Assembly: GCA_022606425.2 (NCBI GenBank)
Contig: JAHDVF020000106.1
Coordinates: 1,674,001 to 1,738,000 of the forward strand
Length of the DNA: 64,000 bases
Source of the DNA: Lepidostoma basale
Taxonomy: Eukaryota; Arthropoda; Insecta; Trichoptera; Lepidostomatidae
Direction of reading: 5' to 3'
The notes beneath the pieces are model-generated. The model saw only the letters and a list, made by a program, of their open reading frames with translations, was not told the DNA's origin and ran no database searches. The position numbers were made by a program, and so were the translations under genes. Below are positions 6,661 to 60,234 of this stretch, piece after piece. How positions within the stretch are numbered: the first letter of the stretch is position 1; every line of letters begins with the position of its first letter.

Positions 6661-7140
6661 ATTCATATATTTAGATTGTCTATTTCACTTGGGACACGTA
6701 ACAGACTTATTTCCATTTTGGTTTGAATATTATTAGATATGAAATTTTGTTAAGATCTAGTTTTAATCGCCGATTTCATACAGCTTTCGGCTATCCAGTG
6801 GATACTGCCATACGAATCTAAGCGTTTGTATTTCTTGTTATTTGGGGACACCAAAGTTTACGTACTATATTTATGTTTTAAATATCCCCAGATACATGTC
6901 TGATTTAGAACAACATTTCTAAATTTGTTTGTTATTTCACGTGAGATTAGATTATTAAGAAATATTTAAAAGTTTTTACTGAAAAATGTTTTAGCTGTCA
7001 AGTAAACAAGGTTTTGACTAATCAAAATTCATTATTAAAACTTTGGAAAGAAGCTATTACTTGGCGGTTTGAAATATTTAAAATTAGAATTAAACACTTT
7101 TAAAACGTTGTATAAAACCACTTTATTTTGAGTCAGGAGC

Positions 7141-7178
7141 GCCAACTGGTTTCACTCTGTAATGAGCTTCGTCAGGGC
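7141..7178 (-). ncRNA. Hammerhead ribozyme-like motif, ACCGGT family, unit 1
   Basis: Read on the - strand: GCC stem I, CTGACGA core, extra A, GCTC-ATTACA-GAGT stem II hairpin (one G-U pair), GAA, ACCAGT stem III, T at the cleavage position, GGC stem I partner. All conserved core positions are present. Stem III has one mismatch. Type I layout is inferred. Confidence 0.6.
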
Positions 7179-7269
7179 TATACACAAACAGTTTTTTAAT
7201 GAAACTGAGAATGAAACTGGTTGGCGCTCCTGACTCAAAATAATATTATTATTATTTTGAGTCAGGAGC

Positions 7270-7307
7270 GCCAACCGGTTTCACTCTGTAACGAGCTTCG
7301 TCAGGGC
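7270..7307 (-). ncRNA. Hammerhead ribozyme-like motif, ACCGGT family, unit 3
   Basis: The most regular copy of its family: GCC, CTGACGA, A, GCTC-GTTACA-GAGT, GAA, ACCGGT (perfect palindrome), T, GGC. Stem I inner helix is 3 bp. Stem III has no loop, so cleavage would need two copies pairing through ACCGGT, as in known minimal type I double hammerheads. Predicted cleavage is after the T before GGC. Confidence 0.65.
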
Positions 7308-7330
7308 TATACATAAACTGTTTGTGTATA

Positions 7331-7368
7331 GCCCTGACGAAGCTCGTTACAGAATGAAACCGGTTGGC
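7331..7368 (+). ncRNA. Hammerhead ribozyme-like motif, ACCGGT family, unit 4
   Basis: GCC 7331-7333, CTGACGA 7334-7340, extra A, stem II GCTC...GAAT (one mismatch against the other units), GAA 7356-7358, ACCGGT 7359-7364, T 7365, GGC 7366-7368. The core is complete. Confidence 0.6.
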
Positions 7369-7394
7369 GCTCCTGACTCAAAATAAAGTGCATG

Positions 7395-7625
7395 CAAGTA
7401 AAATCATGTTTACCACCCCTGATCTGTATGTATATAAAGGGCCAAGTTTACAATAGTGTTACCAGTCTGTCGATGCCAGCGAGCCTGGCGAAACCGGTCG
7501 CTGTCTAAATAAAGACAAAAGTGGAAGTAGTTAAAAAACATTGTTTTATTTAATTATTATTTAAAATGAACTTCCATCAAGACATTTCAGTAAAATCATT
7601 TGATTATCCCAAAATAAAGTGGTTG
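7395..7625 (+). repeat. CAGCGAG/ACCGGTC fold-back family copy with collapsed hammerhead
   Basis: 7477-7505 holds CAGCGAG-CCTGGC-GAA-ACCGGT-C-GCTG. The 3' half of a hammerhead (GAA, palindromic stem III, C, stem I) is kept, but stem II and half of the core are replaced by GGC. The downstream body (AATAAAGACAAAAGTGGAAG, then AACATTGTTTTATTTAATTA) recurs at 19545, 34195, 42299 and 48175. Confidence 0.7.
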
Positions 7626-7821
7626 TTTTATAAAACGTTTTAAAAGTGTTTAATTCTAATTTTAAATATTATTTATCAAAATTCTACAGTGTAAATATCC
7701 TTTAGAATTTATGTTTTTTAAATGGATAATGTATAATTTTTTTCAGTACTAATGTTTTTTTTTCCTATTTATTGTTTCTTGAACAATGATCTTAAAATCT
7801 ATGTTAATCATTAATAGGAAT

Positions 7822-8005
7822 TAAAACATCTGTTTTATACATAAGTATAACATAAGTTTTATGATATTTAATAGGAATAACATGTCTCACCTTGCTAAGG
7901 TATTATAAAAAAAACATTTGATAATGTCCTAACATAGGTGAAACATGGCATTTCCATAAAATATATGAAAACTTCTAAAAAAAACAGATACATATTTTCA
8001 TTTGA
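7822..8005. repeat. Fold-back element, ACATGT family
   Basis: Inverted arms with AACATCTGTTTTAT at the left and its complement near the right end. Internal motifs TGCTAAGGTATTAT and GGTGAAACATGG mark the two degenerate hammerhead arms. Confidence 0.6.
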
Positions 8006-8702
8006 ATTAATTATATAATTTACTCGTATTTAAGGTATGTGGGAATTTTTTGTGCAATTTAGTTTTTAATTTAATTTTAAATTATTTCCTCTATTTAAAA
8101 AAAATTATCGTAATGTCATCTTGATAAATTATTTTTGGCTTTGTATGAAAATACTTTTAACATTTTTAATGTAAGTTTTTTTTACGTTTCTGCTTTTGAA
8201 TTTGGAACGAAGATAAATGATTCCTAAATTGATTTGATTTGTTTGAAATCATCTTTGGTACCTCTTAGAAAGGGTTGTAAAATTTGTTTTGTAATGCGGT
8301 GTAATACTGTCCCTTTTTAGGAAGTACCAGTAATTTTGTTATTCACGTGAATGAACTGTTTAATTTAATTATTAATTAAGTTCCGTGGCATTGTGGAATG
8401 AAGGAGTTAAACGTGAACCGACAGCCATTTTGTTGAAACTATTTTAAACATAATGGCGCCATTTCGTTCACATTTATCTCTAACAGTTCTCTTAAATTAT
8501 CAGTTTATGGTTTATCCGATGTGTGTATATTGAAAATGAATATATATTTTTTTGCTGTGATATATTTTATCATAAACTTGAAAAGGCTATGCCAAAAATG
8601 TAACAGGATAACTTGTAATAATTTATATTACATCTAACTTTATTTATTATGTTGAAGACGGTGGTATTATTCTTTTCAAATTCAGCTTTATTCTCATTGT
8701 CA

Positions 8703-8910
8703 ATTGGACGACCTTCGTGATCGAGTGGAAAGTGTTCGATTCCCAGCGATAGTGTAATTGTCACTCTGTCTTTGGTCTGGTGTAGAATTCACGTGATAAT
8801 AAAATGGCGATCATGAGAATCAATATGATAACTATACCCTTTACATCATTTGGCTCGTGATGTAATGATGTAAAGAGTGATTCATTAAAATTATAATAAT
8901 AATAAATGGA
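8703..8910 (+). mobile_element. tRNA-derived SINE, internally deleted head
   Basis: The head starts ACGACCTTCGTG like the full copy at 61530 but lacks the stretch between the A and B boxes. The body (CTGTCTTTGGTCTGGTGTAG...) and tail (GATGTAAAGAGTGATTCA, AAT repeats) are intact. Confidence 0.8.
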
Positions 8911-10240
8911 ATACTGCTGAATTTGGATGTAATGTGACCATGGACAAAATCTAATGTATAAATTTTAGTTGTAGAAAAATATCTATGGTCCAGTGTGAAA
9001 ATAATATGTATTTTCATTTCACAATTATGCTAAATGATAATTACTATGTACTATTATTAAGGTCAGTTTTAATATGAATTTTACTATACTAGTTGCAATC
9101 CGTGAAATATTCACAGAAGTAAACCAAATTCCACATTCAGTTTCATGGTTTGTTTGTTTGTTTAATGTCATACAGCAATAAATATAACAAAATTCATAAT
9201 AATTCAGATACGTTCACAGGCATGCGCATCGTGTGCCTTTTCAATTACTTTCGCAAAGAATCAAAGTATTTAAATCTCGCTCTGTTCTATTTAAAATACT
9301 CTCGTACTCTTTCTTTGACGACATGGGTATTTTTGCCTTTTTGTATTATGATTTTATGGGAGTGACTCCCGCGAGATATTAAATACTTACTACAGAGTTT
9401 TGAGTTTTACATCGTTGTTCAAGAAACAATATATGAAATGGATAATGTTTGCTAGAATTATTTGGTTTTGGTTTGGATCACGATTTGGGTCTTTTTGAGT
9501 TGCATCAACAACACTGTTATTTTCTTTTGTCTTAAACTACACACTGGACGGTTGATATATTTTTGTTTTGAGGCAAAGTGTTTGTGGGAAATATTTGCAA
9601 TATTTTGTAGCACAAATCGACAGTTTCAGCAGAAGTTAATGAAATAAATATGCTATTTAATCTAAGTATTTGTAAATTTTTGAAGTCTTAGTTTCTAAAA
9701 TGAATTTGGTATGCCTAAACCTTAGGGATTGTGTTCATAATAGATTAATTACACAAGCTATGAAATGTGGATTGGTCGTGTCTGAGCCAGTTTGGCTATT
9801 TATCAACTAAATAGTAGATATTGTTTTTCTTTATAAAAGTACATATTTTATTTTATATGTGTTTGGAGTGTATTTGTTGCGAAATAAAATTTTGCCGCTT
9901 AAATGTATTTTTATTTGATTTCTTCACCTGTCACTTATGTGCTCCTTGTAAAAAAAATCAAGAAATGTTCTCGGCTACTGTTCATCATAAGCCCCCTGGA
10001 AGAATGAATTTCAATGTTTCATTAGTTAATTAAATACGAAATTAATCCAATACCTTTTATATTTAAAAAAAAAAATACACTTGAGATTACTACTATATTA
10101 CTTATAAGATTGCTAAAATCATATTTTCAACCTCAACCATTCTGGACTCCTGGTTATGGCATATTCAAAAATATGTATATTTTAAAACTCTGAAGTATAT
10201 AATGAAATGAAATAATTCCAACATTACTTAGCTAAATAAA
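8911..10240. other. AT-rich intergenic stretch, no gene recognised
   Basis: Contains short AT-rich ORFs with no family resemblance and a CATTGTTCAAGAAACAAT segment near 9410 that belongs to the ACATGT fold-back family. I see nothing else supportable. Confidence 0.6.
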
Positions 10241-10363
10241 TACCAGGAGCACATAAAGAAAAAGAGGTTAATAATTGACAATAAATTTATTTGATTAAAT
10301 TTGTGTTTATTTATTCTACCTACTAGGGAAAATTCCCCTCTTTCGCTTTATGTGCTCCTGGTA
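10241..10363. mobile_element. MITE with TACCAGGAGCACATAAAG terminal repeats
   Basis: Left end TACCAGGAGCACATAAAG at 10241, right end CTTTATGTGCTCCTGGTA at 10363. 123 bp, TA-type ends, non-coding. Two more copies lie at about 10700-10802 and 11336-11440. Confidence 0.8.
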
Positions 10364-10384
10364 TTTTACTCTAATATAAAGTTG

Positions 10385-10645
10385 GATATCATCATCATCT
10401 CAGCCCTCTGTCATCCACTGCTGAATGAGGGCTCGCCCAAAGCACGCCACCGTCCCCTATCCATTGCCGCTCCCATCCATCCAGGTCCAGCAATCCTCTT
10501 CAGATCGTCGGTCCAGCGGACAGGGCGACATCCAACTCTCCGGAATCCACTCCAGAACCCGTCTCCCCCATCAGCTGTCGGTTCTCCGACAGATATGGCC
10601 AGCCCATCGCCACTTCAGCCCGCCCATCCTCAGTCACCTTTGATT
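10385..10645 (-). mobile_element. LINE 3' fragment between two inverted MITEs
   Basis: Starts with an ATC repeat and a CCACTGCTGAATGAGGGCTC block, a form typical of the reversed 3' end of RTE-like LINEs. No open frame of credible length on the - strand. It is bracketed by opposite-oriented copies of the same MITE. Confidence 0.55.
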
Positions 10646-10699
10646 TGATTCAAAGTTGAATATAATGATATCAAAATAACCTCTGCATTTTCAACATTA

Positions 10700-10802
10700 C
10701 ATGATATGTTTCCCTAGTAGGTAGAATAAATAAACACAAATTTAATCAAATAAATTTATTGTCAATCATTAACCTCTTTTTCTTTATGTGCTCCTGGTAT
10801 TT
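10700..10802. mobile_element. MITE copy, inverted relative to 10241-10363
   Basis: Interior (CCCTAGTAGGTAGAATAAAT) is the reverse complement of the first copy. The right end ATGTGCTCCTGGTAT is intact and the left end is eroded. Confidence 0.7.
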
Positions 10803-10849
10803 ATTTATATTTTACTCTAAATAACCTCTGCATAATTTCAATGTTACTT

Positions 10850-11330: not shown

Positions 11331-11335
11331 CTCTA

Positions 11336-11440
11336 TTATGTTATTCTCCCCTAATAGGCAGAAGAAAAAATTAAATCAAATAAATTTATTGTCAATAATT
11401 ACCTCGTTCACTTTATGTGCTCCTGGTATTTTATTCATAT
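11336..11440. mobile_element. Third copy of the CAGGAGCACATAAAG MITE
   Basis: Interior CAAATAAATTTATTGTCAAT and right end CTTTATGTGCTCCTGGTAT match the copies at 10241 and 10700. The left end is degraded. Confidence 0.7.
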
Positions 11441-11474
11441 TATTTTTGTTTTAGACCTGCTCTATGGGATAACT

Positions 11475-12059: not shown

Positions 12060-12295
12060 TTTTTAATGGCAATGGGCTGGATATGTCTGCCAACAGGATA
12101 ATGAGAGCCAGAAGGTTACTAAACGGTGGCTAAGATTGGGTCGAAGTGTCGGGAGACAGCCTACCAGGAAGAGCGATGATATTGTGCGGACGGCCAGAAG
12201 GGCCTGGAGAACACACAGAGGGTTACGTCCAGCAGTGGATGGAGACAGGCCTACGTCAATTATAATAATTAATACAAATGAAAATATAAAATAAA
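12060..12295 (+). mobile_element. LINE-D 3' coding fragment
   Basis: The + strand reads WQWAGYVCQQ, RWLRLGRSVGRQPTRKSDDI, and ends in a GTCCAGCAGTGGATGGAGAC block common to 3' ends of RTE-like elements. The same family is at 30840-31110. Confidence 0.65.
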
Positions 12296-12344
12296 TAAAT
12301 AAAACTTTATATGTAAACATTATGGTTTTTAATAATTGATGCTA

Positions 12345-14356: not shown

Positions 14357-14413
14357 TAGTTTGTTTAACTTGGACTCAAGCTTTATCAGGGCGGTATAAG
14401 AACTAGTTATACT

Positions 14414-14451
14414 GCCCTGATGAAGCTTGGGTCCAAGCGAAACTAGTTGGC
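14414..14451 (+). ncRNA. Hammerhead ribozyme-like motif, ACTAGT family, complete core
   Basis: GCC 14414-14416, CTGATGA 14417-14423, extra A, stem II GCTTG-GGTC-CAAGC 14425-14438, GAA 14439-14441, ACTAGT 14442-14447, T 14448, GGC 14449-14451. Beyond a small internal loop TTATA (before the core) can pair with TATAA (after), extending stem I. All invariant core bases are present. The cleavage base is U, and the extra A before stem II departs from the textbook motif. Confidence 0.7.
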
Positions 14452-14839
14452 ATCAATTATAATAACCATACCGTAGTTAAATACTAAGTTTTTATTTATT
14501 TTATTTTATATTTTTAAAACGTCTTAACCACAAAGTTAGTGCTTGTGAAAAGAAAGAAAAATGAAAATGTCTGTTTTCTAAAAGTTTTATTATAATTTTT
14601 CTGAATGTTTAGCCTGTCTAACTCCCTCTGTCATCCGCTGCAACTCTCCAGTTATACACTTCAAGTACCTAGTTGGGATGCATCTTTTTTTATAGTTCAT
14701 CCCATTGCAACTTTAGTCTACCAACCTTTCACTAAGAAAGTAATATTTGTAAAGATGAAAATCATTGAAGAGTCACATTCAAGTACCCAAAGAGCCGCAT
14801 TTGGCTCGCGAGCTGCAGTTTGCCGACCACTGTCCCTAG

Positions 14840-16600: not shown

Positions 16601-16615
16601 ATGGAATTAGTTTAT

Positions 16616-17590: not shown

Positions 17591-17639
17591 GTTTCTTACT
17601 ACTAAAGTGTATGTAATATTATAATTATAATAATAATAA

Positions 17640-18394: not shown

Positions 18395-18985
18395 TTAACA
18401 CTGTGGAATTCCATTGTAATTGAATTAACAAGGGTGTTTTTACTCCACTTTTATTTATTAAATATGTTTATACAACTAACATGTTTCAGAGGTGACCTTC
18501 ATCCTCAGGTGTAAATATACAAGTTATATGATGTGGATACACCGAAGGATGTTACGCATCTCCTGGACTGACATGGTCAGCAACACAAACATTCTCCATA
18601 GAGCCAGAGTTGCTGAGCAACATCAAAGTCCGTAAGGTGTCCTACTTGGGCCATGTTCTGAGAGGCGAAAAATACGCACGGTTACATCTGATCTTAAAGG
18701 GTAAGATTGAGGGTCGACGAGGTGTTGGGAGAAGGCAGGTTTCCTGACTGAGGAACATCCGAGAGTGGACAGGGCTGAGGACCGTGGAGGAGCTGTTCCG
18801 AGCTGCCCAGGACGGGGAGGCCTACTCGAGGGTGATAGTCAACGTTGGGGAGACCTGACAGGACACAGAAAGAGGTCACCTCCGAAACATGATGTGTTTG
18901 ATATTTTTATTTTGTAAACATATTTAATAAGTGGAGTAAAAACAGCATTGGTAATTCAATTCCAATGTTATATCATTTGAGGTTT
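18395..18985. repeat. Fold-back element of the ACATGT/GAAGG type with a LINE piece in its loop
   Basis: Left arm 18395-18515 and right arm 18868-18985 are inverted copies (ACTCCACTTTTATTTATTAA against TTTAATAAGTGGAGTAAAAA). The - strand of the left arm reads CTGAGGA, T, GAAGG-TCA-CCTCT, GAA, ACATGT, T: a hammerhead layout with CUGANGA core. The right arm keeps only AGAGGTCACCTC-CGAAACATG. The loop holds a LINE-B fragment. Confidence 0.7.
18530..18860 (+). pseudogene. LINE-B polyprotein C-terminal fragment
   Basis: The broken + strand frame reads RRMLRISWTDMVSN, then VRKVSYLGHVLRGEKYA, KGKIEGRRGVGRRQVS and LRNIREWTGLRTVEELFRAA. This is the region after the reverse transcriptase in RTE-like LINEs. 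Stops and frameshifts show it is dead. Confidence 0.8.
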
Positions 18986-19544: not shown

Positions 19545-19765
19545 ATAAAACTATGTTTATTAAGAACTATTTCCACTTTTGTTTTTATTTCGCAAGCAAA
19601 CGGTTTCGCCAGGTTCACTAGCATTGACAGACTGGTATGATCGGTCTGTCAATGCCAGCGAGCCTGATGAAGCCGGTCTCTGTCATTGACAGACAGAATA
19701 ATGGAAGTAGTTAAAAAAAAAACATTGATTTATTATATTAACTGTTTAAATAAAACTCTGTTACA
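19545..19765. repeat. CAGCGAG/ACCGGTC fold-back copy
   Basis: Two arms in inverted orientation. The + arm has CTGATGA at 19664-19670 followed directly by AG and CCGGTC, so stem II is missing. The - arm keeps CCTGGCGAAACCG. The flanking body matches 42299-42434. Confidence 0.65.
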
Positions 19766-19793
19766 AACATCACAATTGATTAAATTTTGTCGC

Positions 19794-19829
19794 GACAGTT
19801 GTTTTGTTAACCGAATTTAGCACCGTCAG
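19794..19829 (-). ncRNA. Hammerhead ribozyme-like motif, degenerate arm
   Basis: Read on the - strand: CTGACGG core (last base changed), T, GCTAAA...GTTAAC hairpin with mismatch, AAA instead of GAA, ACAACTGT, C, GCG. Probably inactive, but it confirms the arrangement of the partner arm. Confidence 0.5.
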
Positions 19830-19866
19830 ATCTTACAATCAACTGTTGTTCTGTTGATTGTAAGAC

Positions 19867-19902
19867 CTGATGATGCTAACATCGGTTAGCGGAACAGCTG
19901 TC
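19867..19902 (+). ncRNA. Hammerhead ribozyme-like motif, ACAGCTGT family
   Basis: CTGATGA 19867-19873, extra T, stem II GCTAAC-ATCG-GTTAGC 19875-19890 (six perfect pairs, tetraloop), GGA 19891-19893, palindromic stem III ACAGCTGT 19894-19901, C 19902. Only one conserved base differs (GGA for GAA). The cleavage triplet is GUC. The inner stem I is weak, but TTGATT upstream can pair with AATCAA downstream. Confidence 0.6.
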
Positions 19903-20559
19903 ACGACAAAATATAATCAATTGTGATATTTATAACAAAGTTTCTTATTTAAACAATTAATAATGTTGAAATATCAAAGTGTTTCCGCCAAAACAATAGA
20001 TTATCTATTTAATCATTATTTAAAATGAACTTCAAGTAAACAATAAAATCATTTGATGATATTTATAATACCTTTAAGCGCATATGCCCTATTTTAATTT
20101 TATTTTTGATAATGCCAAACAAGTATAATAAAAGTGATTATCAAAAGATTTGTTATTTTATTATGATATAATATATTTTTTACGATTGCAATAAAAGTAC
20201 GGACCATGTTGGGATCAATGATCTGCAGCCGTATTGTGGAGTGCTTCAACCATTACACCAAGTGGTCTTCCATGATTGCCATTAAATTCTAAGCGATACA
20301 ATAATAATAATAAGCTAGGAATAAAATACCTTACCGTAAGATCCAGAGTAAAATGAACACAGACTAAACCACACCAAGGGAAGAGTGCATAAAACTATAG
20401 AAAATCCTAATTTCTTACTTTGCGTAATTACTTGTACACTCAAGGAAATTAGACCCGGACTTCGCAAGATTTCCGCGCAACTACAGATAATGTGATGTTT
20501 GCCAACTTTTACCCTACGAGATCTAACAATATTAAAAAAATAACTTATTAACTAACCGA

Positions 20560-22622: not shown

Positions 22623-22624
22623 CA

Positions 22625-23375: not shown

Positions 23376-23379
23376 GACA

Positions 23380-23690
23380 TCAAGCTGACATGTTTCGTCT
23401 TGTTAGGGCATTATCACAAAATATACATGAATATTTTTAATTATATTCATCATCTCCGTTATAATAAGTAGTTTAACATCTAATATTAATATTGATGAAA
23501 ACATTTGTTTTCTAGAAAAAATATTATTTTTTATGTTTTGCCGTACTAGGCTATACTCATTAGTAAACAATATTTGATAAAGCCAATGCAAGGTGAAACA
23601 TGTCACTTACATTATATGTAATAAAACTTGTATCAAACTATCTATATTTAATATGGAGTTTTACAGCATTGTTCAAGAAACAATAAATTG
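23380..23690. repeat. Fold-back element, ACATGT family
   Basis: The left arm (- strand) carries GTGATAATGCCCTAACAAG, C/GAA, ACATGT, C. The right arm (+) carries TTTGATAAAGCCAATGCAAG, GTGAA, ACATGT, C. The trailing CATTGTTCAAGAAACAATAA is present. Confidence 0.65.
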
Positions 23691-26969: not shown

Positions 26970-27150
26970 GAAGTGAATTTATTGTTTCTTAAACAGTGAT
27001 GTAAAACTCCATATTAAATAATTAATATGAACAAAATGAAGGAGTTTTATTATATTTTAGATGGAATGACATTTGATAATGCCTTAGAAGGGCGAAACAT
27101 GTCATTCCATCTAAAATATAATAAAACTCCTTTAAGACGGACGCTTTCAT
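26970..27150. repeat. Fold-back element, ACATGT family, tightly paired
   Basis: Arms GGAGTTTTATTATATTTTAG and its complement enclose CATTTGATAATGCCTTAG, AAGGGC, GAA, ACATGT, C, ATTCC. The GGAATGACAT block before the core pairs fully with ATGTCATTCC after it, so the RNA could close as one hairpin. Core bases are TTGATAA instead of CTGANGA. Confidence 0.7.
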
Positions 27151-33885: not shown

Positions 33886-34194
33886 GTAAGTTTTTCTCAA
33901 TAATAAATACTTTGTACCCAACACTTCTTTGCACTTTTCAGTAACAAAGCCACTTCCAACAGGTGGGGGAGCAATAGTCTTCGGGCTGATACTCCCGAAA
34001 GACAAGTTCCTAAACTTGACATTTTTCACAAACATGTTTCATATCACAGAAGCCTTTCTTCAGAGTAAATTTTTTATTTTTAAATTCCTACAGAGAAAAG
34101 TAGAGATACAGTCTGCTCCCCAAAATATGTTTGAGAATAGTGCAGAGAAGTGTTTAAAAAATACAATATTTTTCAGAAGTTATTCAAATAAACA

Positions 34195-34290
34195 AAGTAG
34201 TTAAAAAACATAGTTTTATTTAATTATTATTTAAAATGAACTTCCATCAAGAGATTTCAGTAAAATCATATGATTATCTTAAAAATTATT
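34195..34290 (+). repeat. CAGCGAG/ACCGGTC family, 3' body only
   Basis: AAGTAGTTAAAAAACATAG, then ATGAACTTCCATCAAGAGAT and the TTTCAGTAAAATCAT end, as at 7500-7610 and 42400-42490. The hammerhead-bearing part is missing. It ends within a few bases of the stop codon of the 7-finger gene. Confidence 0.65.
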
Positions 34291-34293: not shown

Positions 34294-37200
34294 TCATTTT
34301 AAATTATTTTGGGAATGTTCTTTTCTCATGTGTTTTCTGTAGACATCAGTCCTCTTGAAGCCCTTGTGGCAGAGATCGCAGGTGTGCTTGTAAGCCGCAC
34401 TGTGCGTCGCCTCATGCCGTGCCAGTTCACTTTTGGCGGCAAATGAAAGTGAGCACCCGTCTTGTGAACATGGAAATGGACGCACCTTCGAGTGTTTCCT
34501 TATACTATGGAACCTTAAATGGGAAAGTAATAACTATTAATTAACAGATAATCCATGCATTACTTTACCAGCGGAATATATAGGGAGGATAGGCAGGAAG
34601 GAAATTTGGAATTTCCAAATACAAGTGTGTAATGCCGCATGATTTCAAACAAAAAAATGAGTTTAAATTATTTCAGAAATCTTTTTGAAAAATGTTATAT
34701 ATGAGATGGTTAGTTAGTTAGTTAGTTTAATAAATATTTAGTTAAATTCCACGTGATTCTATGCTTTCGACTGGTTTCAGCAGCTCAACTTCTGTTGACT
34801 GCCGAAACCGATTGAAACCATAAAATCAAATGAAATTAAACTAAATATATGCGTATGTTACATGTAATGAGTTATAAATAATAAACTGCGCTGGTTCGGA
34901 CATATGGAGCCCATTGGTAAAGAAAGAATGGTTAACAAAGTATATGTCAACAATGTAAATGGAGTACAGAGTCGAGGTATACCGAGGAAAACATGGCATG
35001 ACCAAATTAATCAAATTTTAAAGGTTGGTCATCTCAGAAGCCGGAAGACGCGTGTGCGTGTATGACTCGCTGTATGAATGTGGAGGAAGCTAGAGAGGTG
35101 TCAGGATAGAGTAGTGTGGCGGTCCATTCTCTCTGCCTACCCCTGCGGAGAAACGGCATGATGGTTTGTTGTTGTTGTTGTATACGTAATAAAAAGGTTT
35201 TTCATTATTTTTCATTGTTCATAAACTAAACTATCCATCACGCCGTTTCTCCGGAGGGGTAGGCAGAGAGGATGGACCATCATACTGCTCTACCTTTAGA
35301 GCTTCCTCTAAATTCATATATCGTAACATGCACGCCTGTCGATTTTTCCGACTTCAAATGTGGCCACCTTTTAGTATTTGATAAATTTGGTCATGCCATG
35401 CTTTCCTTGGTCTTCCACGGCTTCTTTTTCCACTCACACTATTTATATACAACATTTTAACCATTGTTCTCTCATCCCTTTGTTCCAAATGTCTAAACCA
35501 TCATCAAGATGAGAGGTAGAATTTCAAATAGCGGTTCTCTTGGAGCTGATTACCTAAGGGCCCCTGGCGTGACGAAAGCCATCCCACAGAGGTGGCAGCA
35601 GAACTCCCTGAGCTGCAGGTGCCCCCTGACGTGCATGTGCATGTTGTGCTTGCTGCTGAAGCAGCGCCCGCAGTGCGCGCAGCCATACGGTTGCGCCCCC
35701 GAGTGGGTCTTTAGGTGCGTCTGCAGGGTCGCCAGCAGCTTGAAGGAGCGCCCGCAGACGGGGCACGCCTCGCTGTACGACATGTGCACCTAGCAGACAA
35801 TTCTATGTAATTACGCTGATATTCATTAATCCACAATATGCCAAAAATTTCATCATTCGTTCAGACAACCTTCGTGGCCGAGTGGCAAGTACTATGACTG
35901 CCTTACCGAAGGTCCTGGGTTTGATTCCCGGCGATGGCGTATTTTTATATAGAGAGCGATTCAACAAAAAAAATGAATAAGCAATTTAAACATTTATACT
36001 TTGTTCTACTATACTTTTTCACCGATTGCTTTTTAAGCGTTCACATTTAGATTTTTAGATTTAAAACACGTCTTAATGCGCCCTTGAGGTGATTACATCA
36101 CAAAAACGGCGCTTTAAAAGTTAGCATATTATTATTATTATTATTATTAAGCAATATTCCAGAAAAATATTATAATTAAATTTTATCTATACAAAATTTT
36201 GTTAAAAGAAAAAAAAAATGTTTGCTGTAAATTTATATATTGTTTCAAGAAAAATGATTTAATATTAACAAGTTAAAATCAAGGAATACTTCCGTTTTCT
36301 AGAAGTTTTTTTTAAATTTATAACTTATACAAATGAAAAGATCTATTTTCTAGAATTTTTATTATAATTCATAGGAATTACATGTTTTGTCTTGCTAAGG
36401 CTTTATCAAACGACATTTATCAAAACATTTGATAATGCAGCAAGGCGAAACATGTCATTTCCATAAAATATAATAAAACTTCCAGAGAACGGATATTTTC
36501 ATTTGTATTATTTATTACATATTAGTTTTAAATCATTGAATAAGAAATAATTAATAATTGTTATATTTTAGTTAGTTATGGACATTTAGGTTTGTTGTTA
36601 CCCTGATGAAGCTTCACTTAAAGCAAAAACAGTTGGCATTCTTAAAAAACAAATAAAATGGTGTTATAACAAAATAGTAAGTTTTTTAAATATATATCTA
36701 AAAATGTCAGCCCACAAATCATGCTTCTTCATAAGGTAGAAAAATATAGTTTTAATCTATCCAATATACATATATATTGTTAATATAAATGCCTGAGACA
36801 TTGTAGTATTTGTTGATGGTTGAGGTATAAGTTTTGTAAAACTCATTATTAATTTATAATAGTGAACACGACTGTTTATTGGTTTTACTTGGATTTAATT
36901 TATATAAATTTAATATAACCACTAAACAATCGTGTTTGCTATTATAAATTATAGATTGTGTTATTTTTAAACTGTTATTCCTCATTAATAAGGGATAGTT
37001 ACATATCAGTATCGTTGTCCGTCATTTATAATTACGTATGGATTCTAGTAAATATTAAATAAAATAAACATTTTTATACATACATTTTTGTAATGCCTTG
37101 TGCACAACTTTTTGGTGGGAAACCATTTGTTACAAGTGGGACAGTTCATTGGTTCCGTATGGCTTTTAAAATGGTTAATCATAGCAGCTTTAGTAGAAAC

Positions 37201-41100: not shown

Positions 41101-44100
41101 ATTCCTTTCTTATATCAGCATTTGAGATTCTGTCGTATATCGTTCTACCACACATACGTCTTAGGGACCTCATCTCTACCGCATTTATTCTACTCTCATC
41201 CTTCTTTTGCCAGTTCCATGCTTCGCTTCCATACATTAAGGTTGGGACCAGAACTCCATTGTGAACGGCCGTTTTCGCTTTCATTGATAAATTCTTGTTT
41301 CCAATAACTATTTTTAAAGCTCCATTCACTTTGTTACCCGCACCAACCCTTCTTTCGACGTCACTATCCGTTCGGGCATCTGCTGTGAACATGCTACCTA
41401 AATACACAAATTCCCTCACCTGTTCCAAGTTCTCTTCGTTCACACTTATATTACAAACTGTCATTTGCTCTTCCCTTTCGAAAACCATCACCTTTGAATT
41501 TCCGACATTATATCATTAAATCATTTGACTTGCATATCTCATACATTCTCGACACCAAGACTTGTAATTCGTCCGCACTATCCGCAACGAGAACGGCATC
41601 GTCCGCGTAAAGCAGACAGTTTACAGACAGATCACTCATCTTAGCACCAGCATTTATATCTTTAAGTTCTTTCATACACTTGTCCATATACAGATTGAAC
41701 AACCATGGAGACATCACGCAGCCCTGCTTAACACCCTTCGTGATATCAAACCAAGGCGTGATGTCTCCATTTACCCTAACACTGGCAGTGCTCCCTTCGT
41801 AGAGAGAAGCAACCGCCCGTATCAGTTTTGTGCTCACTCCGTATTCGGACAAGATTGACCACAGTTTATCTCTGTTCACTCGATCATAGGCTTTTTGCAA
41901 ATCGACAAACGCACAGAAAAGCTTACGGTTTTTGACCATAAACTTCTCCGCAAGCGTTCGAAGTGCAAAAATCTGATCCATACATCCTCTTCCGGTCATA
42001 AAAGCGCCTTGAACATTCCATACTCTTTCAGTCGTCGTCTTTTTTACTCTTTCTATTAAAATTCGGCCGTAGAGTTTACCAACGGCGCTTAACAGACTTA
42101 TTCCCCGGTGATTTCCGCAGTCCATACGAGACCCCCTTCCCTTATATAGAGGCATGATAACAGCCCTCCTCCAGTCGATATATATTATACTTCATAGTAT
42201 ATATAGTATATAGAAGTCATTAAATACATTGTGCCTGGTGTTCTCTAGCAATATGTTATTCCAACTTATAATCAGGGGTAGGATAGCTTGTAAAGGAATA
42301 ATAATTAAATAAAACAATGTTTTTTAACTACTTACTTTGACTTTATTTCGACAGCGACCGGTTTCGCCAGGCTCGCTGTTGAAATAAAGACAAAAGTAGA
42401 AGTAGTTAAAAAACATTGTTTTATTTAATTATTATATAAAATGAACTTCCATCAAGAGATTTCAATAAAACCATTTGATTATCTTGTAAAGGAATGTTTT
42501 TCCTTATCTTATGAGCCTTAACCGTGTCAAAAGTAGTTCCACAATGGTGGAAGTGGGAATAGAAGCATCAAGTGTAATGTCTCAAGTCTGCTGATGGGGG
42601 ATGGTTTCAGGATGTGCGCTGCGTGATCAAGCAGGAGGAGGTGAAGGTGGAGCCCGGCTCCTCCGGGCGGATGACCCCCTCGCCTCCCAAAGTGCAACCC
42701 AATGGTAATTGTCACACATTTTACAATTATTTTTTGAAAAAAAAATATCTGATTCCTTTTACTTAGTAAACACATTTTTTTAATAAATTTAATAACTTTT
42801 TTTTTTCCACTTTTCACTCTTCTTCTCAGAGTTTATCTTTCTCCTAATGATGAAGGTGAAAAACCTTTAAAACAAGTCAAGAAAAATAAACTGATTGGTG
42901 AAAAACAGTGTTTGAATTCATACAACAAACCATCACGCCGTTTTCTCGCAGGAGTAGGCAGAGAGAATGGACCGCCTCATTACTCTATCCTGACACACCT
43001 CTTTAGCTTCCTCCACATTCATACAATGAATCATACACGCACATTGATTTGTCCGACTTCTAACATGACCAACTTTTAAAATTGGATTAATTATCCTCAT
43101 AATCATTATGGAATTCCATAAAAAATCCATCATTATGGAATTTATCAGAAATAAATGCAATATTTGCTTTCTAAAGATATTTTTTCAGGGCTCTAAAGTG
43201 TAGTTGTCTACATTTGCAGTCCAAAAAAAAAAAGTTTTCTAACTGCGGCAGACTAATTTGCAGTTTATATTTGAATGTATTTTATATATATATTTTTACT
43301 TAAATTCCTTATTACTAAATTATACCTGGTATTATGATGAACTAGAACTATCTGTCTGAACTGTAAATGTAGTCAACCGCATTTCGATACCGATTTTTTT
43401 TTACTACAAAAGAAGCCAGCCACACAATGATGGATAGGTTTTATTTTTGTAGCTATCATTAACTATTTTTTACAATAAATAATGTGTGAAGCAATGTTAG
43501 AAATATATTTTTGGCTAAATAATAGTTGCAATTTCACATTTACAAAAGTAATTCTTCTCTAATTATGAAATTGAAGAGAATGTTTTAAAATATATTTGGA
43601 GCAGAGAAAATAACTTAAAATTAATTTTTTTTAAGAAAGTATTGGATTTTGTAATGTTTTCCAGGTATGCGAATATGTTCAAACTTGCCGCAGTTCAAAA
43701 TGGAGCGTGAAAACAACACGGCGCGCGATTTGAGCGATGCTTTGAAAATCCACGAAGTCCCCTTGACCAACGGCAACTCTGACACCTGCCAGCTGCTCAA
43801 ACTCACCAACGGAACTCTCAAGAATGGCCGCCTCTTTCTGACAAATGTTTCAGGGAAGATACTTCCGGAAACTCCGCCCATCTCCCCGCTCTCCTCTCTG
43901 AGTCCCCCCGCCTCCCCGCCCGCCGCCAGCAACCAGAACTACCTCAAGGTGGAAGGAGATAACCCCGTCTACCTGCAGCAAGGGGTGAGGGGGATGGTGT
44001 CTGTTTTACCGACCATGCGTTTGCAAAATGGCATTGTTAAAAAGTTGAAGATTCAGCCAAAGCCATACGCCAAGTCGACGCCAATTCAAAATGGAGAACA

Positions 44101-47100: not shown

Positions 47101-50100
47101 AGGAAAGAGTCTTCATAAAAACCCCTGCTAGGAAGGTGTAGAGTGTGTTATAATTAATATTAGTATTTCATTTTAAAAATAATGCCCAGTATAATGTGGA
47201 GCCTAGGTCGGCATAAGAGTTGTTGTATGAAATACTATGTGGAGTCACACTGGACATTGGAATGGTAATAGTCAATTGAAGATTATTGGCCATTACAAAG
47301 GTGTTAAGTGAAGTTACATAAAACAAAGAAAAAGAGAAAAACGGATTATTTTTGCATATGGCATCTTTAGGGTGACGTTTGGATTTTACTATATTATTTA
47401 ATCGCTTTGCTTCTTTGCACAGCTATTGGTTTATGTTTAACACCAATTGGGATCAAAAACTCATTTTTGACTTTTTTGATACTGACACCTTTGTAATGTC
47501 CAGCCTTCCAATTATTGTATACCTATACTCACGGGTATAAAAACGCATTCTAAAAACTCAGTGATGTAGGATGCTCTCTATGGGGTAAGCCAGTGTGTAA
47601 CTATAAATAATGTTCCAGAGAATCGGCGTGCCTATCCCGAAAGAAGAAGAAGGAATACGTAACTTCACTAGAGGGGCGTCTGGCCACCGCCGAGGCAGAG
47701 ATATCCCGCCTCCGCAGGGAGAATGCAGCCCTGCGGGCACGCCTGGCCCCCCCCACCTCCATCTCCCAGTCGCTGCAGACCCCGCGCCTGGCCCCGCTGG
47801 CCAAGGCGGCCGTGGGGCTCCTCGGGGGGACGCTGCACAAGAAGAATGTGGCGCTTCTCTTTGGGATGATGTTCATGGTTTCTCTGAACATCGGGGGCTT
47901 TGGGTAAGATACCGTGGCTCTTTTTCGTTGTCTCTCTTTACCGGGGCTGATAAATGAATTCTTTACAAATTTTACAGGATATCTGTCATAATGTGTATCT
48001 TCAACTGCATCAGTATAAATATATTTTATCTTGCAAGTTGCAGGACCAACCTGACTTTGGTGATGTCAGTGGATAGAGTAATTAATCTTTTGAACATAAA
48101 TTTCATCTCAATGGCAATGAATTAATTTTAAAATCATCACTGAAAATGTAAAATAATCATTTTAAACAATAATGAAATAAAACATTGTTCTTTAATACAT
48201 ACTTCCACTTTTGTCTTTATTTGGACAAAGGTAGAAATAGTTCTTCCTTCAAGAGATTTCAAGAAAATCATTTGAAAAGAAAATCATTTTAAAAATAATC
48301 AATACACTGTTTTATTGTTCTATAATCAGATACTCTATCTATTTCTTTAATATGTCTGAAAATTATTTGATCATAACAATTAAATATTTATTTTTGATAA
48401 ACTTAATGAAGAATTTCATAATGATTGTTTTTACATTATTGAGTTTATTTTTCTCGACATGTTTCGAAGGTTTTATACCTTCATCATCGGTAGAACTATA
48501 CAAACTCCCGATGATGAAGGTATAATCAATAATACAATCTCCGATATGATTAGAAAATAGCTCATTATTATAAAGAAGGAATCTGGTCGTGTCCAGGTTT
48601 GAATCCAAGTCTCCTAGATTATGGGCCAATCGTTCTGTCCCCTAGACCGCCACTCGATTTAAGTGCTTCATACAAAAGTACATTAATAAATTATTAAATC
48701 GCATCTTCCTTATATTGAATCCCTTGAGCAAGTAAATCTTCTCCTGGTATTTATCAACTATAATTCTGCTTCTAGAACATACTGGCTTCGGGGGGAGACG
48801 GCAGGATTGTCTGCGCGCCTCGCCCCCGCCCCGCGTCACAACCGCGCCCTGCTCTGGGCGCAGCAGGACACGGACACCGTCTACTTCGATGACACCGGTA
48901 AGTGGACATTAAAATACTACCTATTACCAATCGTGCTTACTAAGACATTGTTTTATTATCAACTAGCGGACCCGGTAACGCTTCGCTATTGCATACAGAA
49001 TATATGGATTAAACAAATACAATTGAAGTTAGATGTCGTCGTGTGATCGTGGCACGTTTTCCTCAGTCTTCCTCTATTTCTAGTTCTATTTACATTGTTA
49101 AAATATACTTTTTTTACCATTCTTTCTTCATTCATTATTTCCATATGTCCAAACTACATATGTTAATGTCACAATAAGAATTAATTTATATGCGTTTTAA
49201 TGATGCATTATAACTAGGAAGTAATATTAACAAACAGTGAAAATTATTATACTTCAACTGAAAAACAAATGGAGTATTGGAACAAAAACCGTGAGAAACA
49301 AATAAGTGATTGACTGTGGTGTTAATTCCAGGTGAAGAGTACACTTCGAGGAATGACATGAATGAGTCTCGGCCGGTGTGCCCGCCCTCGGTGACGGGCG
49401 TGAACAGCAGCGAGAGCGCCCGCCTCGCCGGGGAGCTGCAGCGCTGGCTCAACGGGGACGCGGCCTACACCAACCTCTCCCTGCGCGCCCCCCACATCAA
49501 CGCCCCCCTCCTACCGGACCACAGTCAGTTTGCTTCCTTACTGTGACTACTAATATTCATTTATTAACACTTGTGAACTTGCACTTTCCAAAGGAATGAT
49601 CTGAATTGCTCATTAGTTAAGTGCATTCCACAGTTCCAATACATATTTCATTTAGTTTATTTTAAAAAAAATGTACAAATACAAATCCAGGTAGTTTGCG
49701 AAAACATATTAAAAAATTAACATAAAGAGTAAGAATTAGAAATAATCATAACATTAGTATTACATTCTCGTTGACCTCCGAGGCAACCTGATTAATCACC
49801 CTAGGTATATGAACGTACGTGATACGTTTACTCTGACTGTACCATTTCTAAGCTATCTATTATATTGAGAAAATGTAATGTATCGAAAATGTACAAACTG
49901 TTGGGGATACGCGCGTGTGCCAACAACACTCGAGTACAAGTCTTCACAAATATGATAGTTTTACAAGGGGCAGGCGATGTGTGCGGTCGAGTTTTGACAT
50001 TTCATAATTTAAAAAATAATAATTATATATAATTCAATTTGATAAATAAAAAACCTGCTTTATTTTTGCATGTTTCTGGGAAAATTACCTGAAGGTAAGG

Positions 50101-55090: not shown

Positions 55091-55094
55091 TATA

Positions 55095-56348: not shown

Positions 56349-56676
56349 TTAACCACCCTACCTATTTGAACGTACGTGATACGTTCACTTTGACTGTACC
56401 ATTCTACGATATCCCGTATCACGTAATGGCGTGAGAAAAAGTAATGTACCTATAATGTACAAAGTTTTAGGGATAAGCGCGTGTGCCATCAAAACTTGAG
56501 CACAAGTCTTCATAAATATGATAGTCCTACAAGGGGCAGGCCAAGTGTGCGGCCGAGTATTTGACCTTTCGTAATTTAAAAAAAATAAAATTAGTGTATA
56601 ATTAAATTTCATTAATAAAAAACCTGCTTATTTTTTGCACGTTTCTCGGAAAATAACCCAAAGGTAGGGCGGTTAA
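56349..56676. mobile_element. TTAA MITE, CACCCTA family, copy 2
   Basis: TTAA 56349-56352, CCACCCTACCT at the left, AGGTAGGGCGG then TTAA 56673-56676 at the right. About 328 bp. The interior matches 49793-50106 throughout (GAACGTACGTGATACG; CAAGGGGCAGGC). Confidence 0.88.
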
Positions 56677-58730
56677 AAATGAAAGATGGCATGTGTGTAA
56701 ATAAATGTATATTTATTTAAAATATTATTTCTTATGAATGTATAATTTACGTACTTTCCAGTAATTGTGTGAACATAGTATATGGGCACGTTTCCAAGAT
56801 AATATTATGTGTGAAGGAATTGAGGGTTGTCGAGTGAGTTTATTTGTTAATATGGTGGTGATGGCCGTGTAGTAAGCTGTAAGATAAGATGTGATACTCT
56901 ACATTATCATTGTTTGTTTATTTATAAGTACCCTGTTTATTATTTTAGTGTGTAAATTAATTATATACATATAATATATAAAAGGCAAAACAATTTTTTT
57001 TCAACAGGGCTAATTTGAAATGGTATATTTAGATTTTGGGATGCATGATCGTTCCATTTCGGTCTAAACAATTCTAATTCGCTCAAACATCAGATGTTGA
57101 GAATTTGAAAAAGCTTTATTAATATCATTATAACTTAAATGTAAAATTTTGTAAATATATATTATATATTTTTTGCGAAGATTACATTGATAAATTATCA
57201 ACCATGAAGCGAAGAAATAGGGCGGGTGCTTAAAGAAATATATAATTGTAATAAAATCAATAAAAATGCATTTAGTTTCTCTATGCTGCTTCAACTTCAA
57301 CCATTCAGAATTAGTGTGTATTAAAAATCACAAAATGAAATGGATGTTTAATTGAAATGTAATGATTTATTGTCGAGTATTGTCTTAGTAGCCCTTAATG
57401 ATAGTTTCTACAATATTTATATTTAAGATAAGACAATACCTGCGTTTTGATCTCGTAACCAGTTTCCTAATGATTCAGTTCCATATTAAATATATTGTAA
57501 CGCTTAAATAAACCTTCAGGAATATTCTACAAGTAAAAACTAATTATTTGACTTGTAGAAATGTTGAAAATTTTACAATTGATTTGTTAACAACAATATT
57601 TTTAATATGTCTCACATTATTTATGGTAATACAACTCTTGCAGAGTTCTGGTGTCACCATCAGCTCTCTCTTGTCTCAGTTAGCCATCATCGGCAGTCCC
57701 TCGTCTCCGAGGAAGACTGTCCTTCACGGTTGTGGGTCCGCATGTGGCTTAAGAGTCCAATCCTGGACCCACACACTCTGGGACATCTAGGACAGCCATC
57801 ACTCTCCCGATGGTCTCTCCTTCCTTCTCCTCTCTGTGGCGTCGTCTCTGTGCTGTGCTTCAAAGTCCTGCGTTGTTATTCTCCATCTAAGTCTGTCTTC
57901 TGCAGTCTTTTCTCAGCATTCACTATCACAATATTAGATGAAGATGCCAATTAGCCATCACAATGTCTATGAAACTCTGTCACGATCTGATGACGTTGAC
58001 CCTTTAATTGATTTAACATCTACCAGGAGGACTATCGCACAAATAAATGAAATATTTCCATATTAAATGGAAGAAACCTCCTAAACTAACATAATTTAAT
58101 GTCTGGTTCACCACAGTACTAAATTAGAAAGGTGTTGACATATCACAAATAGTCGGATAATACATACCCGTGCCAATTTTCGTAAAACTGATCTAAAATA
58201 TAATTAAACATGTAAAATTATGTATCTTATATCTTTATTAGAATCTTGTGGTACAAGTCCGTATTTAGTTATATAGTTTTAATATACAGGTATATCTATA
58301 GTTTCCTCACTTTTTCATTTGTTCCATAGAATGTTGTAGACTTTAATTGTTTTATCTGTGAAAGACATGCAATCCAACTACCACGTAGTGCAATACGTAT
58401 GACCAAAAATTATTGTTTGTAATAAATACGATTTATAATATACGATAAAAATATGTGTCACCGTAAATTTAAGAAAAATGATTTTGTACAAAAATATTTT
58501 TAGTTTGAACTTTTCTGTATATTTTGCTTAACCCAATGAAAAGGAGCATTTATTCAATTTACATATTTGAAAAAAGACATGAATTGTTTAACAATATCAT
58601 ACAAATAAAAATATAAATTTCTTTCTATTATGGTTTCACTTTGACATAATTATTTCTTTTAAAAAAAGTGTTTTTTTTTAATTAATTTCTATTCCCCGGT
58701 TTTAAATGTTCGCTTGTTTAATTTTGATTA
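56677..58730. other. Intergenic, one GC-richer repeat block
   Basis: Mostly AT-rich. 57640-57960 is a GC-richer block (GGCAGTCCCTCGTCTCCGAG; GGTCTCTCCTTCCTTCTCC) resembling the reversed end of an old retroelement, but no frame supports a call. An inverted repeat surrounds 57380-57440 (TATTGTCTTAGTAG / AAGATAAGACAATA). Confidence 0.45.
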
Positions 58731-58734
58731 AAAC

Positions 58735-59400
58735 ATCAGTTTTCAAGAAGTCTTTTTATGTTTTACGGGAGTGACATATTTTGCCTTGCTGAGGCATTAT
58801 CAAATGTTCAAACAGACACTTTTATAAATATTTATTATAGAGTTTTACATCACTCTTCAAGAAACAATAAAGACTTAGTTTATGAATATTATATCACTAT
58901 TATGTATGGAAAATAACAAGACCATTGACTATAGTCAATCAATGAAGTTGTATCTATTATTGAGGAAAACATTCATTTTTGGTAATATTAAAATACAAGG
59001 GAGTGACATTTTCCTCTTGCTAGGGCATTATCAAATGATATTTGATAGTGCTCTAGAAGAAACGTGTTTCTCCCTTCTACAAAACTCTCAATTTCATCTT
59101 TATGAAATAATAAATATAAAGACTAATATCAAGGATTTACATCAATGATATTAGAATTTATTTTACAATCTTCAATGTGAGCAGAACCCATGTCCCCTTG
59201 ATCAGGAGCCAAGCGTTCTATCCCCTAGAATTGTTTCCCAACCCACCATCTTGTTTCTTGAAGAATGATGTAAAACTCCATATTTCATTTAATGAAAACA
59301 TGTGTTTCAGCTTTGCTTTGGCCTCGCTAAGGCACTATCAAATATAGTGAAAATCAAATCCGTAACTGTTTATACCTTAACTAATGACTAATGAATATTT
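58735..59400. repeat. Cluster of ACATGT-family fold-back fragments
   Basis: Three partial copies: 58735-58875, 58880-59160 (its GGGCATTATCAAATGATATT / TTTGATAGTGCTCTAGAAG centre is palindromic) and 59255-59400. All have damaged hammerhead cores and GTTCAAGAAACAAT/TTCTTGAAGAATGATG ends. 59180-59235 and 48595-48655 share a reversed tRNA-like TCCCCTAGA block. Confidence 0.6.
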
Positions 59401-60202
59401 AATATGATGATATCCCTAGAAAGGTGTGATTTTTTCAATATTAAATATTTCTTGACGTCAACGATACATTGTTACATTCCTCTATACTGGTCTATGTTTA
59501 ATTGTTTCTAATTTGAAATAAATATTGTATCTACATTGAAGTGAAGAGATAGGTTGTAATATAATTTAGTTATCAAATAGGACGTACACCGGGGGCTGCT
59601 TCTAAAAATACTTAAAGGAAATGTGTGTTAAAGGAGTGAATTGTGAAGCAGGCTGTGGCCAAACATAACTTGCATTTTACTAAATGGATGAATGAAGATT
59701 GATCCAGTTGGTAGATATTCAAAATAGTTTTATTTTTTGTATATTTGTTTGAAAAGCACAGATTATATATTTTTTACACTGTTTTCTTTTACCTCAAAGA
59801 ATGTTTAATAAAGTTTGATTTTAAACCTACAATTTGTTCATTATTGAATTATTTTAATTGATATCCATTTGATAAAGTTACAGCAGGGATGAAAATGATA
59901 AAGGGTAACTGAAAGCTTATGATTTTTAAGGATCAAAGCAAAAAAAATCTCTTAAAATGCACTATTCAAACAGCAATTTAAATCATAAATGGATTTCAAA
60001 ATTGAATATCATATATGTATTAGAAGAAACATGTTGGATAGATATCGCACTTCAATTGTATTTGTTTAATTAATATATTCTGAGATGGTAGGCAACGTCA
60101 TGTGGCGCCCAGCTGACCATGTTACACGGAGGGTAATAGAAGTGTTCAACCCCCCACCATTTTCATTTCATATATAACCCTAACAAAATTTGATAAAGGT
60201 AC

Positions 60203-60234
60203 CAGAAAATGGCAGCGTGCTGTCGAAACCGGTC
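60203..60234 (+). repeat. Hammerhead-like relic, GAAACCGGTC type
   Basis: CAGAAAA (two changes from CTGANGA), T, GGCAG-CGTG-CTGTC hairpin, GAA, ACCGGT, C. Same spacing as the other families including the extra base before stem II. No inverted partner was found. The two GTTACACGGAGGGTA blocks at 60120 and 60314 are direct repeats around it. Confidence 0.45.

Follow-up and report, generated by a model that had tools for sequence, protein, structure and literature searches.

Probable Penelope-like origin of hammerhead-bearing fold-back repeats in the insect Lepidostoma basale

Introduction

We analysed a stretch of 64,000 nucleotides from Lepidostoma basale (contig JAHDVF020000106.1; G000:C117:1674001-1738000 in our numbering), called the window below and taken from an assembly of 769 Mb in 1572 contigs, in which several fold-back repeat families carry a motif that resembles the hammerhead ribozyme. 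Our reading, to which we give a probability of about 0.88, is that these families are solo, truncated or head-to-head pseudo-long terminal repeats (pseudo-LTRs) of several lineages of Penelope-like elements (PLEs), each with a minimal variant of the type I hammerhead, in which stem III is palindromic and a single additional base separates A9 from stem II. The copies in the window are mostly decayed remains. The combination itself, hammerheads in PLE pseudo-LTRs together with inverted pseudo-LTRs, is already known, and we describe here a rich instance of it. Minimal type I hammerheads in PLEs were reportedly described by Cervera & de la Pena in 2014 and by Lunse et al. in 2017.

Results and Discussion

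The layout that the repeat families have in common consists of a CUGANGA-like core, one extra base, stem II, GAA, a palindromic stem III and a short stem I. A first-pass annotation of the same DNA had claimed this order of parts for at least four families, and we indeed located it in families A, B, C and D; to these four we add E, F, K and H. Some parts of that description need to be narrowed. The CUGANGA core is exact in A, B1 and C1, but reads CCGAUGA in D1 and CUAAUGA in D2; stem II is followed by GAA in the other families, but by GGA in C1; and many copies do have the fold-back form, whereas E1, H and some F copies are solitary. Core and GAA are both exact in A, B1, K and the genome copies found with a pattern that demands them, and show one or two changes in D, E, F and H. 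Family F, with the core UUGAUAA, is present in 12 window copies. All coordinates are collected in Table 1.

A chance origin is rejected by shuffles and by reversed-pattern counts. The strict test, which demands the exact core, a stem II of at least 4 bp, an exact palindromic stem III and a stem I of at least 3 bp, gave two matches in the window and none in 200 Markov shuffles. Allowing one core mismatch gave three window matches against a shuffle mean of 0.005, and at the loosest setting (two core mismatches, stem I not required) there are eight, where shuffles average 0.44 and reach 4 at most. Throughout the source genome, the pattern CTGAYGAWG-N(8-20)-GAAACNNGT was matched 9,918 times (4,949 + 4,969), its reversed form five times (4 + 1); for GCCCTGANGAAGC the counts are 5,190 (2,650 + 2,540) and, reversed, 13 (5 + 8). 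A pattern scan of viral contigs gave 119 loci, and among the best 20 by stem II length only four had a stem II of at least 4 bp, none of these four with a palindromic stem III.

We then have the result of a covariance model (CM), which was built solely from copies outside the window, though partly of the same families. It found 23 window matches up to E 5, 14 of them at E <= 0.0023, and seven, namely B1, A1, E1 (38.5 bits, E 1.3e-10), D1, A3, A2 and B2, at E <= 5.4e-8. E3b and several F copies were not matched by this model. As a control, the model was run on 14 of the 119 viral loci, all of them already chosen for a pattern of this kind; because the best of them reached 23.2 bits, window matches of 17-23 bits (K, H, D2, C1, F_27, 34025 and 36597) are no proof on their own. 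Matches under about 24 bits rest on family likeness, which supports all of them except 34025.

The first-pass annotation had read compensating differences in stems I and II as the sign of a selected RNA fold, and covariation does exceed shuffles across families, genome-wide copies included. For stem II we used 74 distinct strings from the 100 genome matches listed, with at least one further distinct string missed. At the four outer positions 86.5% of the cells are paired, against a mean of 61.6% and a maximum of 70.9% in 2,000 shuffles; the value is 39.2% when the extra base is counted into the stem. The genome pattern fixes the first G of stem II, so that only pairs 2-4 are free, and these show C-G, G-C, U-A, A-U and G-U types. 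The four positions of stem I are paired in 70.4% of cells (44.1% shuffled, 56.6% at most) in 38 motifs that had been selected on core, insert and stem II and not on stem I. In 25 of the 38 the palindrome of stem III is exact, and stem III is shown more by this palindrome than by covariation, because two of its three pairs hardly vary. An alignment of 36 copies from outside the window, left after a likely chance match (L187:1065-1113) had been removed from 37, gave a covariation score of 0.658, which fell to 0.185 on shuffling and to no more than 0.131 on sliding; its stem I is 63% paired, its stem II complete by selection. These controls leave relatedness among the copies in place, and it is the agreement of different families that carries the weight. 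With three helices in type I order, an open stem I and covariation, the sequences support a hammerhead-variant fold of type I.

The link to PLEs to which the annotation had pointed is borne out most directly by family E, which forms the pseudo-LTR of an autonomous PLE in this genome. GIY-YIG domains are frequent in this genome (62 matches at E <= 1e-3, with 150 of 541 candidates scored). Two loci, L188 and L189, contain open reading frames (ORFs) of 758 aa with a reverse transcriptase (RT) domain, RVT_1, and GIY-YIG, both above the Pfam cut-off; a single ORF with RT and C-terminal GIY-YIG is the PLE design. Relatives of the protein number 1,343, the named ones among the 120 listed being from insects (moths, butterflies, locusts, leaf beetles), and a search of viral and prokaryote contigs returned none. 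In L188 (ORF 2007-4280, plus strand), an E hammerhead lies upstream on the opposite strand (1692) and downstream on the same strand (4669), with a motif that matches window E1 at every base; the inverted arm at the left terminus contains the complement of the region after the ORF. The E motif adjoins RT/GIY-YIG ORFs in eight of nine PLE regions (not in L191), while a tenth region, L195, turned out to be bacterial UvrC. We also sorted 30 GIY-YIG loci into 18 close to the 758-aa protein, nine divergent ones and three (L158-L160) with no match to it. The pattern finds the E motif in 16 of the 18 close loci, some of which overlap with the nine PLE regions, and in L166 the CM adds a match of 29.5 bits at the usual place. 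Family E thus has what is expected of PLEs, hammerhead-bearing pseudo-LTRs that are often inverted head-to-head.

The window copy E1 aligns without gaps to the L188 pseudo-LTR over 7399-7607 (202/209 identical), its first eight bases remaining unaligned. We read it as a 5' truncation because the copy begins inside the longer L188 repeat. A target-site duplication, another trait of PLEs, measures 12 bp at this single insertion. The distance from the start of the TATA box-like sequence to the E1 core is 36 nt; for a similar sequence ahead of the H core it is 32 nt.

That family K belongs to a second PLE lineage, near its endonuclease, is well supported. Its motif (UUACAC CUGAAGA U GGAG..CUCC GAA ACAUGU C GUGU, or decayed forms) occurs at seven of the nine divergent GIY-YIG loci. 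In six it follows the domain on its 3' side and shares its strand, and in L172 it overlaps the domain end; at these loci the GIY-YIG part alone was seen. The other two divergent loci are L162, with a C-type motif about 800 bp 3', and L167, with nothing above 11.1 bits. Judged by its sequence, the window copy at 18472-18514 belongs to family K.

Several results speak against our reading. The first-pass annotation had suggested an Rfam search; run over the whole window, it gave nothing at gathering thresholds and no hammerhead even at E values up to 10. Family F, taken alone with its 12 window copies, shows weak covariation: 78.9% of cells are paired, 57 of 500 shuffles being as high, and its covariation score was reached by 21 of 500 shuffles. 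K-type motifs were seen near E-lineage ORFs as well (L165 and L191) and, since motifs are moreover dense in the genome, the evidence that ties K to PLEs is weaker than that for E. In loci of 3 kb, copies of A, B, D, F and H had no PLE ORF next to them, and among 38 pattern-derived loci (L120-L157) just one, L152, gave a weak PLE match with 32% identity. The core changes in E (A6U), D (U4C) and H (U4A) are expected to hurt catalysis. In the loci examined, copy starts form no clear peak at the predicted cut, and whole fold-backs fold as long duplexes.

For families A, B, D, F and H, the tie to PLEs is one of anatomy only. The annotation had proposed a new group of non-autonomous fold-back retroelements. 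For E, the pseudo-LTR of an autonomous PLE, and for K, which sits near a PLE endonuclease, this is rejected by their place at PLE ORFs; for A, B, D, F and H part of the idea survives in the form that A, B, F and others are short non-autonomous elements, retrozyme- or SINE-like (SINE, short interspersed nuclear element), which carry their own hammerhead and are mobilised in trans by PLE proteins instead of being simple pseudo-LTR remains. The missing ORFs near A, B and F copies, the thousands of pattern matches and a same-strand triple at 90-bp spacing on contig C2 all agree with it. We nevertheless consider it quite unlikely, as A, B and F share the extra base, the type of palindrome and the head-to-head habit with E and K, which do adjoin ORFs. 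Retrozymes, furthermore, carry canonical hammerheads in tandem repeats about 150-450 bp long, and here 10 head-to-head neighbours stand against 3 on the same strand.

These numbers come from the first 100 places of the GCCCTGANGAAGC pattern, where 10 neighbouring pairs within 1 kb have the order minus/plus, 3 have minus/minus and none has plus/minus. All 10 opposite-strand pairs are therefore head-to-head, with the hammerheads pointing outwards. Head-to-head pseudo-LTRs with palindromes at the junction are known from rotifer PLEs, for which self-priming is the explanation given (PMC3846280). The long inverted repeats would also suit fold-back DNA transposons such as miniature inverted-repeat transposable elements (MITEs), with a hammerhead likeness by chance. 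Such an origin is rejected by the position in PLE pseudo-LTRs and, given also the shuffle and reversed-pattern controls and the covariation, appears extremely improbable.

For the reading as PLE pseudo-LTRs, the following course of events can be proposed. A promoter inside the pseudo-LTR, suggested by the TATA box before the motif in E and H, would drive transcription. The hammerhead would cut near the 5' end of the transcript, probably as a dimer formed through the palindromic stem III and perhaps aided by the PLE protein. The GIY-YIG enzyme would nick AT-rich DNA, and reverse transcription would begin at the nick. Solo pseudo-LTRs would then be products truncated at their 5' end, and the head-to-head inverted copies, the fold-backs, could arise from self-priming or strand jumps. 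The A stretch 7100-7400 is predicted to form a single long duplex (-207.5 kcal/mol), and because of this its transcript is more likely to be double-stranded RNA than an active ribozyme.

We next turn to the extra base. One base stands between A9 and stem II in all eight loose window matches, in 15 of 15 strict genome motifs and in 38 of 39 motifs. In the canonical hammerhead stem II follows A9 directly; we class the motif as a hammerhead variant and not as canonical because here the extra base separates the two. The pattern behind the 9,918 matches demands A or T at the insert position, and a pattern with G directly after A9, hence with no insert, gives 159 matches, in a comparison that is slightly unequal as it also needs a C before GAAAC (present in 60 of the 74 strings). 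Of these 159, 100 were listed; 36 of the listed matches agree with an inserted G, 14 with the absence of an insert and 50 with neither. Families C, D, E, F, H and K have the U of an AUG as their insert; A and B have an A, with no AUG there. The insert is probably one reason why the Rfam models miss these copies. For 81 bases around B1, Hammerhead_3 scored 16.8 bits (E 0.16; cut-off 48.5) with the extra base aligned as an insert, and E1 alone gave no hammerhead match.

A literature search at title and abstract level, with the main PLE hammerhead papers outside its scope, returned no mention of an insert between A9 and stem II, and the nearly fixed base is possibly one novelty here. The insert may, by analogy, be general to PLE hammerheads. 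In a PLE of the anole the ORF is described as beginning at stem II, with the cut 26 bp further on (PMC11167929). If we add up A9, the insert, a hairpin of 14 nt, GAA, a stem III of 6 nt and H17, we obtain 27 if counting starts at the A and 26 if it starts at the next base, and it is this fit to the anole spacing that suggests an insert in PLE hammerheads at large. One may speculate further that at least 10 stem II families from several PLE lineages within one insect represent a subclass of hammerheads in which a spacer of one nucleotide is required after A9 and before stem II and in which core changes are specific to the lineage (U3-A8, A6U, U4C, U4A), in other words a distinct, perhaps protein-assisted architecture with catalysis off the canonical core rules; we regard this as rather unlikely. 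In any case, a nearly constant base at this place sets the motif concretely apart from the hammerhead core.

Whether RNA cleavage persists can be judged in part from the core and the copy starts. It could be that cleavage was lost and that the fold is kept for a structural reason such as protein binding, RT start or promoter function. This would agree with the core changes in E, D and H and with the lack of a peak of copy starts at the predicted cut. Counted as copies that begin at most 3 nt from the predicted cut, with overlapping loci counting some copies repeatedly, we obtained 2/79 for E, 2/34 for B, 3/51 for D (two at the same place), 0/56 for A, 0/31 for K, 0/31 for I, 0/21 for J and 0/54 for F. 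It would also agree with the anole PLE, whose hammerhead is described as not needed for insertion in vitro and as cutting only with protein present (PMC11167929). What makes the loss of cleavage somewhat unlikely to us is the exact core of A, B1, C1 and K, the covarying stems and the core of F, where U3-A8 replaces C3-G8, a pair reported to be natural and active, next to a natural A6C that is slow (PMC3088659). The loop I-loop II contacts of efficient hammerheads are reported missing in PLE-type minimal hammerheads (PMC7761336). A genome search with the E pseudo-LTR has no bearing on copy starts, the best 40 of 324 candidates being nearly all near full length. In the window, two E and two B pieces (42298-42435, 48157-48227, 2680-2775 and 12281-12342) begin at most 3 nt from the predicted cut.

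Among known systems, the published minimal palindromic hammerheads of PLEs (PMC7761336, PMC6466107) come closest. By the descriptions in reviews they have the same open stem I, the same short palindromic stem III that asks for dimers, the same place in pseudo-LTRs and thousands of dispersed copies (PMC7761336, PMC7229834, PMC6466107); the nearly fixed A9/stem II insert is the difference. Poseidon/PAc of Anolis carolinensis, likened here by its description and not by sequence, has the RT and GIY-YIG ORF, the hammerhead-bearing pseudo-LTR and AT-rich targets in common with our elements (PMC11167929). In C, D, E, F, H and K the AUG overlaps A9 and the insert, and the predicted cut lies 25-30 nt after its A, which resembles the anole arrangement (PMC11167929); on the other hand, L188 has no same-strand motif before its ORF, and A and B have no AUG. 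The repeat-type hammerheads of Aedes aegypti are likewise from insect repeats, with a palindromic stem III and a proposed dimer, but the description compared mentions neither a PLE link nor an A9 insert (PMC3088659). Metazoan non-LTR retrozymes are similar in their type I hammerhead, small size and low GC, and are described as tandem repeats with canonical hammerheads, unlike the mostly head-to-head, minimal forms found here (PMC7229834).

With an origin for the fold-backs, the genome offers a natural collection of thousands of variants, among which stem II takes many sequences. These could serve the question why PLEs keep a hammerhead at all, which a review calls a mystery (PMC7761336), and the two open RT and GIY-YIG frames in L188 and L189 provide a candidate enzyme.

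Table 1. Hammerhead-like motifs and associated repeats in the window (CM, score with the covariance model).
Feature	Position	Strand	Evidence
A1 hammerhead motif	7265..7308	-	CM 40.6 bits; pattern test
A2 hammerhead motif, arm opposite A1	7330..7373	+	CM 32.4 bits
A3 hammerhead motif	7136..7179	-	CM 35.9 bits
A fold-back, outer left arm; element interrupted by E1	7073..7121	.	96% complementary to 7622-7670
A fold-back, outer right arm	7622..7670	.	complementary to left arm
B1 hammerhead (UGCC CUGAUGA A GCUUG GGUC CAAGC GAA ACUAGU U GGCA)	14413..14456	+	CM 46.3 bits, E 2.7e-13; pattern test
B1 fold-back, self-complementary stretch around B1	14363..14443	.	self-BLAST, fold
B2 hammerhead, decayed core CGGAUAA	2836..2879	+	CM 30.8 bits
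B 3' flank, inverted copy, head-to-head with B2 (upstream)	2680..2775	-	82% to B1 flank
B 3' flank fragment	12281..12342	-	83%
B-like decayed copy	36597..36640	+	CM 18.2 bits, E 0.0012; sequence
C1 hammerhead, GGA for GAA, stem III ACAGCUGU	19863..19910	+	CM 17.3 bits
C2, decayed motif in inverted arm	19786..19833	-	fold, sequence
C fold-back, arms 19753-19843 / 19853-19943	19753..19943	.	85% complementary
D1 hammerhead, core CCGAUGA	48448..48494	-	CM 38 bits
D2 hammerhead, core CUAAUGA	42838..42884	+	CM 21.4 bits
E1, solo 5'-truncated pseudo-LTR of autonomous PLE, inside A-family element	7391..7609	+	alignment to L188
E1 left target-site duplication CAAAATAAAGTG	7379..7390	.	exact 12-bp repeat
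E1 right target-site duplication CAAAATAAAGTG	7610..7621	.	exact 12-bp repeat
TATA box-like TATATAAA upstream of E1 hammerhead, putative promoter role	7431..7438	+	sequence; same place in L188
E1 hammerhead (CAGU CUGUCGA U GCCAG CGAGC CUGGC GAA ACCGGU C GCUG)	7463..7507	+	CM 38.5 bits, E 1.3e-10; pattern test
E2, head-to-head inverted pseudo-LTR ends around truncated motif	42298..42435	.	36-nt arms 100% complementary
E3a, decayed E motif	19590..19634	-	CM 9.6 bits only, E 1
E3b, decayed E motif, head-to-head with E3a	19642..19686	+	not matched by CM
E pseudo-LTR 3' tail fragment	34195..34284	+	94% to E1
K-family hammerhead, core CUGAGGA	18472..18514	-	CM 22.5 bits; same beginning, UUACACCUGA.GAUG, as in K copies close to PLE ORFs
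H hammerhead, core CAGAAAA, TATATAA box upstream	60197..60240	+	CM 21.9 bits; pattern test
F copy in hairpin, perfect 34-bp arms 27039-27072/27099-27132	27069..27108	+	CM 18.3 bits
F copy	36425..36461	+	CM 14.2 bits
F copy, head-to-head with 36425..36461	36374..36413	-	
F copy, stem II ACUUU/AAAGU	5002..5041	-	
F copy	1392..1429	-	
F copy	833..871	-	
F copy	23570..23609	+	CM 12.2 bits, E 0.13
F copy	23382..23422	-	
F copy	58768..58807	-	
F copy	59000..59038	-	
F copy	7914..7954	+	
F copy, head-to-head with 7914..7954	7874..7912	-	
Motif of uncertain standing, no family assigned	34025..34069	-	CM 22.3 bits, inside control range

Other Features of the Window and the Genome

A degraded D-family copy lies at 5174-5262, with pieces on both strands. 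The hairpin at 45152-45236, at first motif-like, was rejected because we read it as a piece of the RTE reading frame. The gene content of the window is insect-like, with two zf-AD zinc-finger ORFs, a Fizzy-type WD40 exon, a DDE_3 transposase and a reverse transcriptase of a long interspersed nuclear element; a protein search with a zf-AD ORF scored no relatives. The DDE_3 endonuclease domain belongs to an open frame of 460 aa (12748-14127, minus strand) of the IS630/Tc1-like transposase kind. A near-perfect hairpin of 59 bp is found at 6150-6280, where microRNA models match both strands below their cut-offs. Inverted repeats of 99 nt, 99% complementary and 377 bp apart, form a MITE-like element at 10233-10331 and 10709-10807.

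Outside the window, L195 (G000:C102:20000-25500) contains a bacterial-type UvrC frame of 623 aa with UvrC_RNaseH, UVR and HHH domains (ORF 2507-4375, plus strand), so that this is likely a symbiont or contaminant contig within the insect assembly. The three same-strand cores on contig C2 lie at G000:C2:986526, 986616 and 986706, all on the minus strand, and a tandem array of this kind could form dimers.

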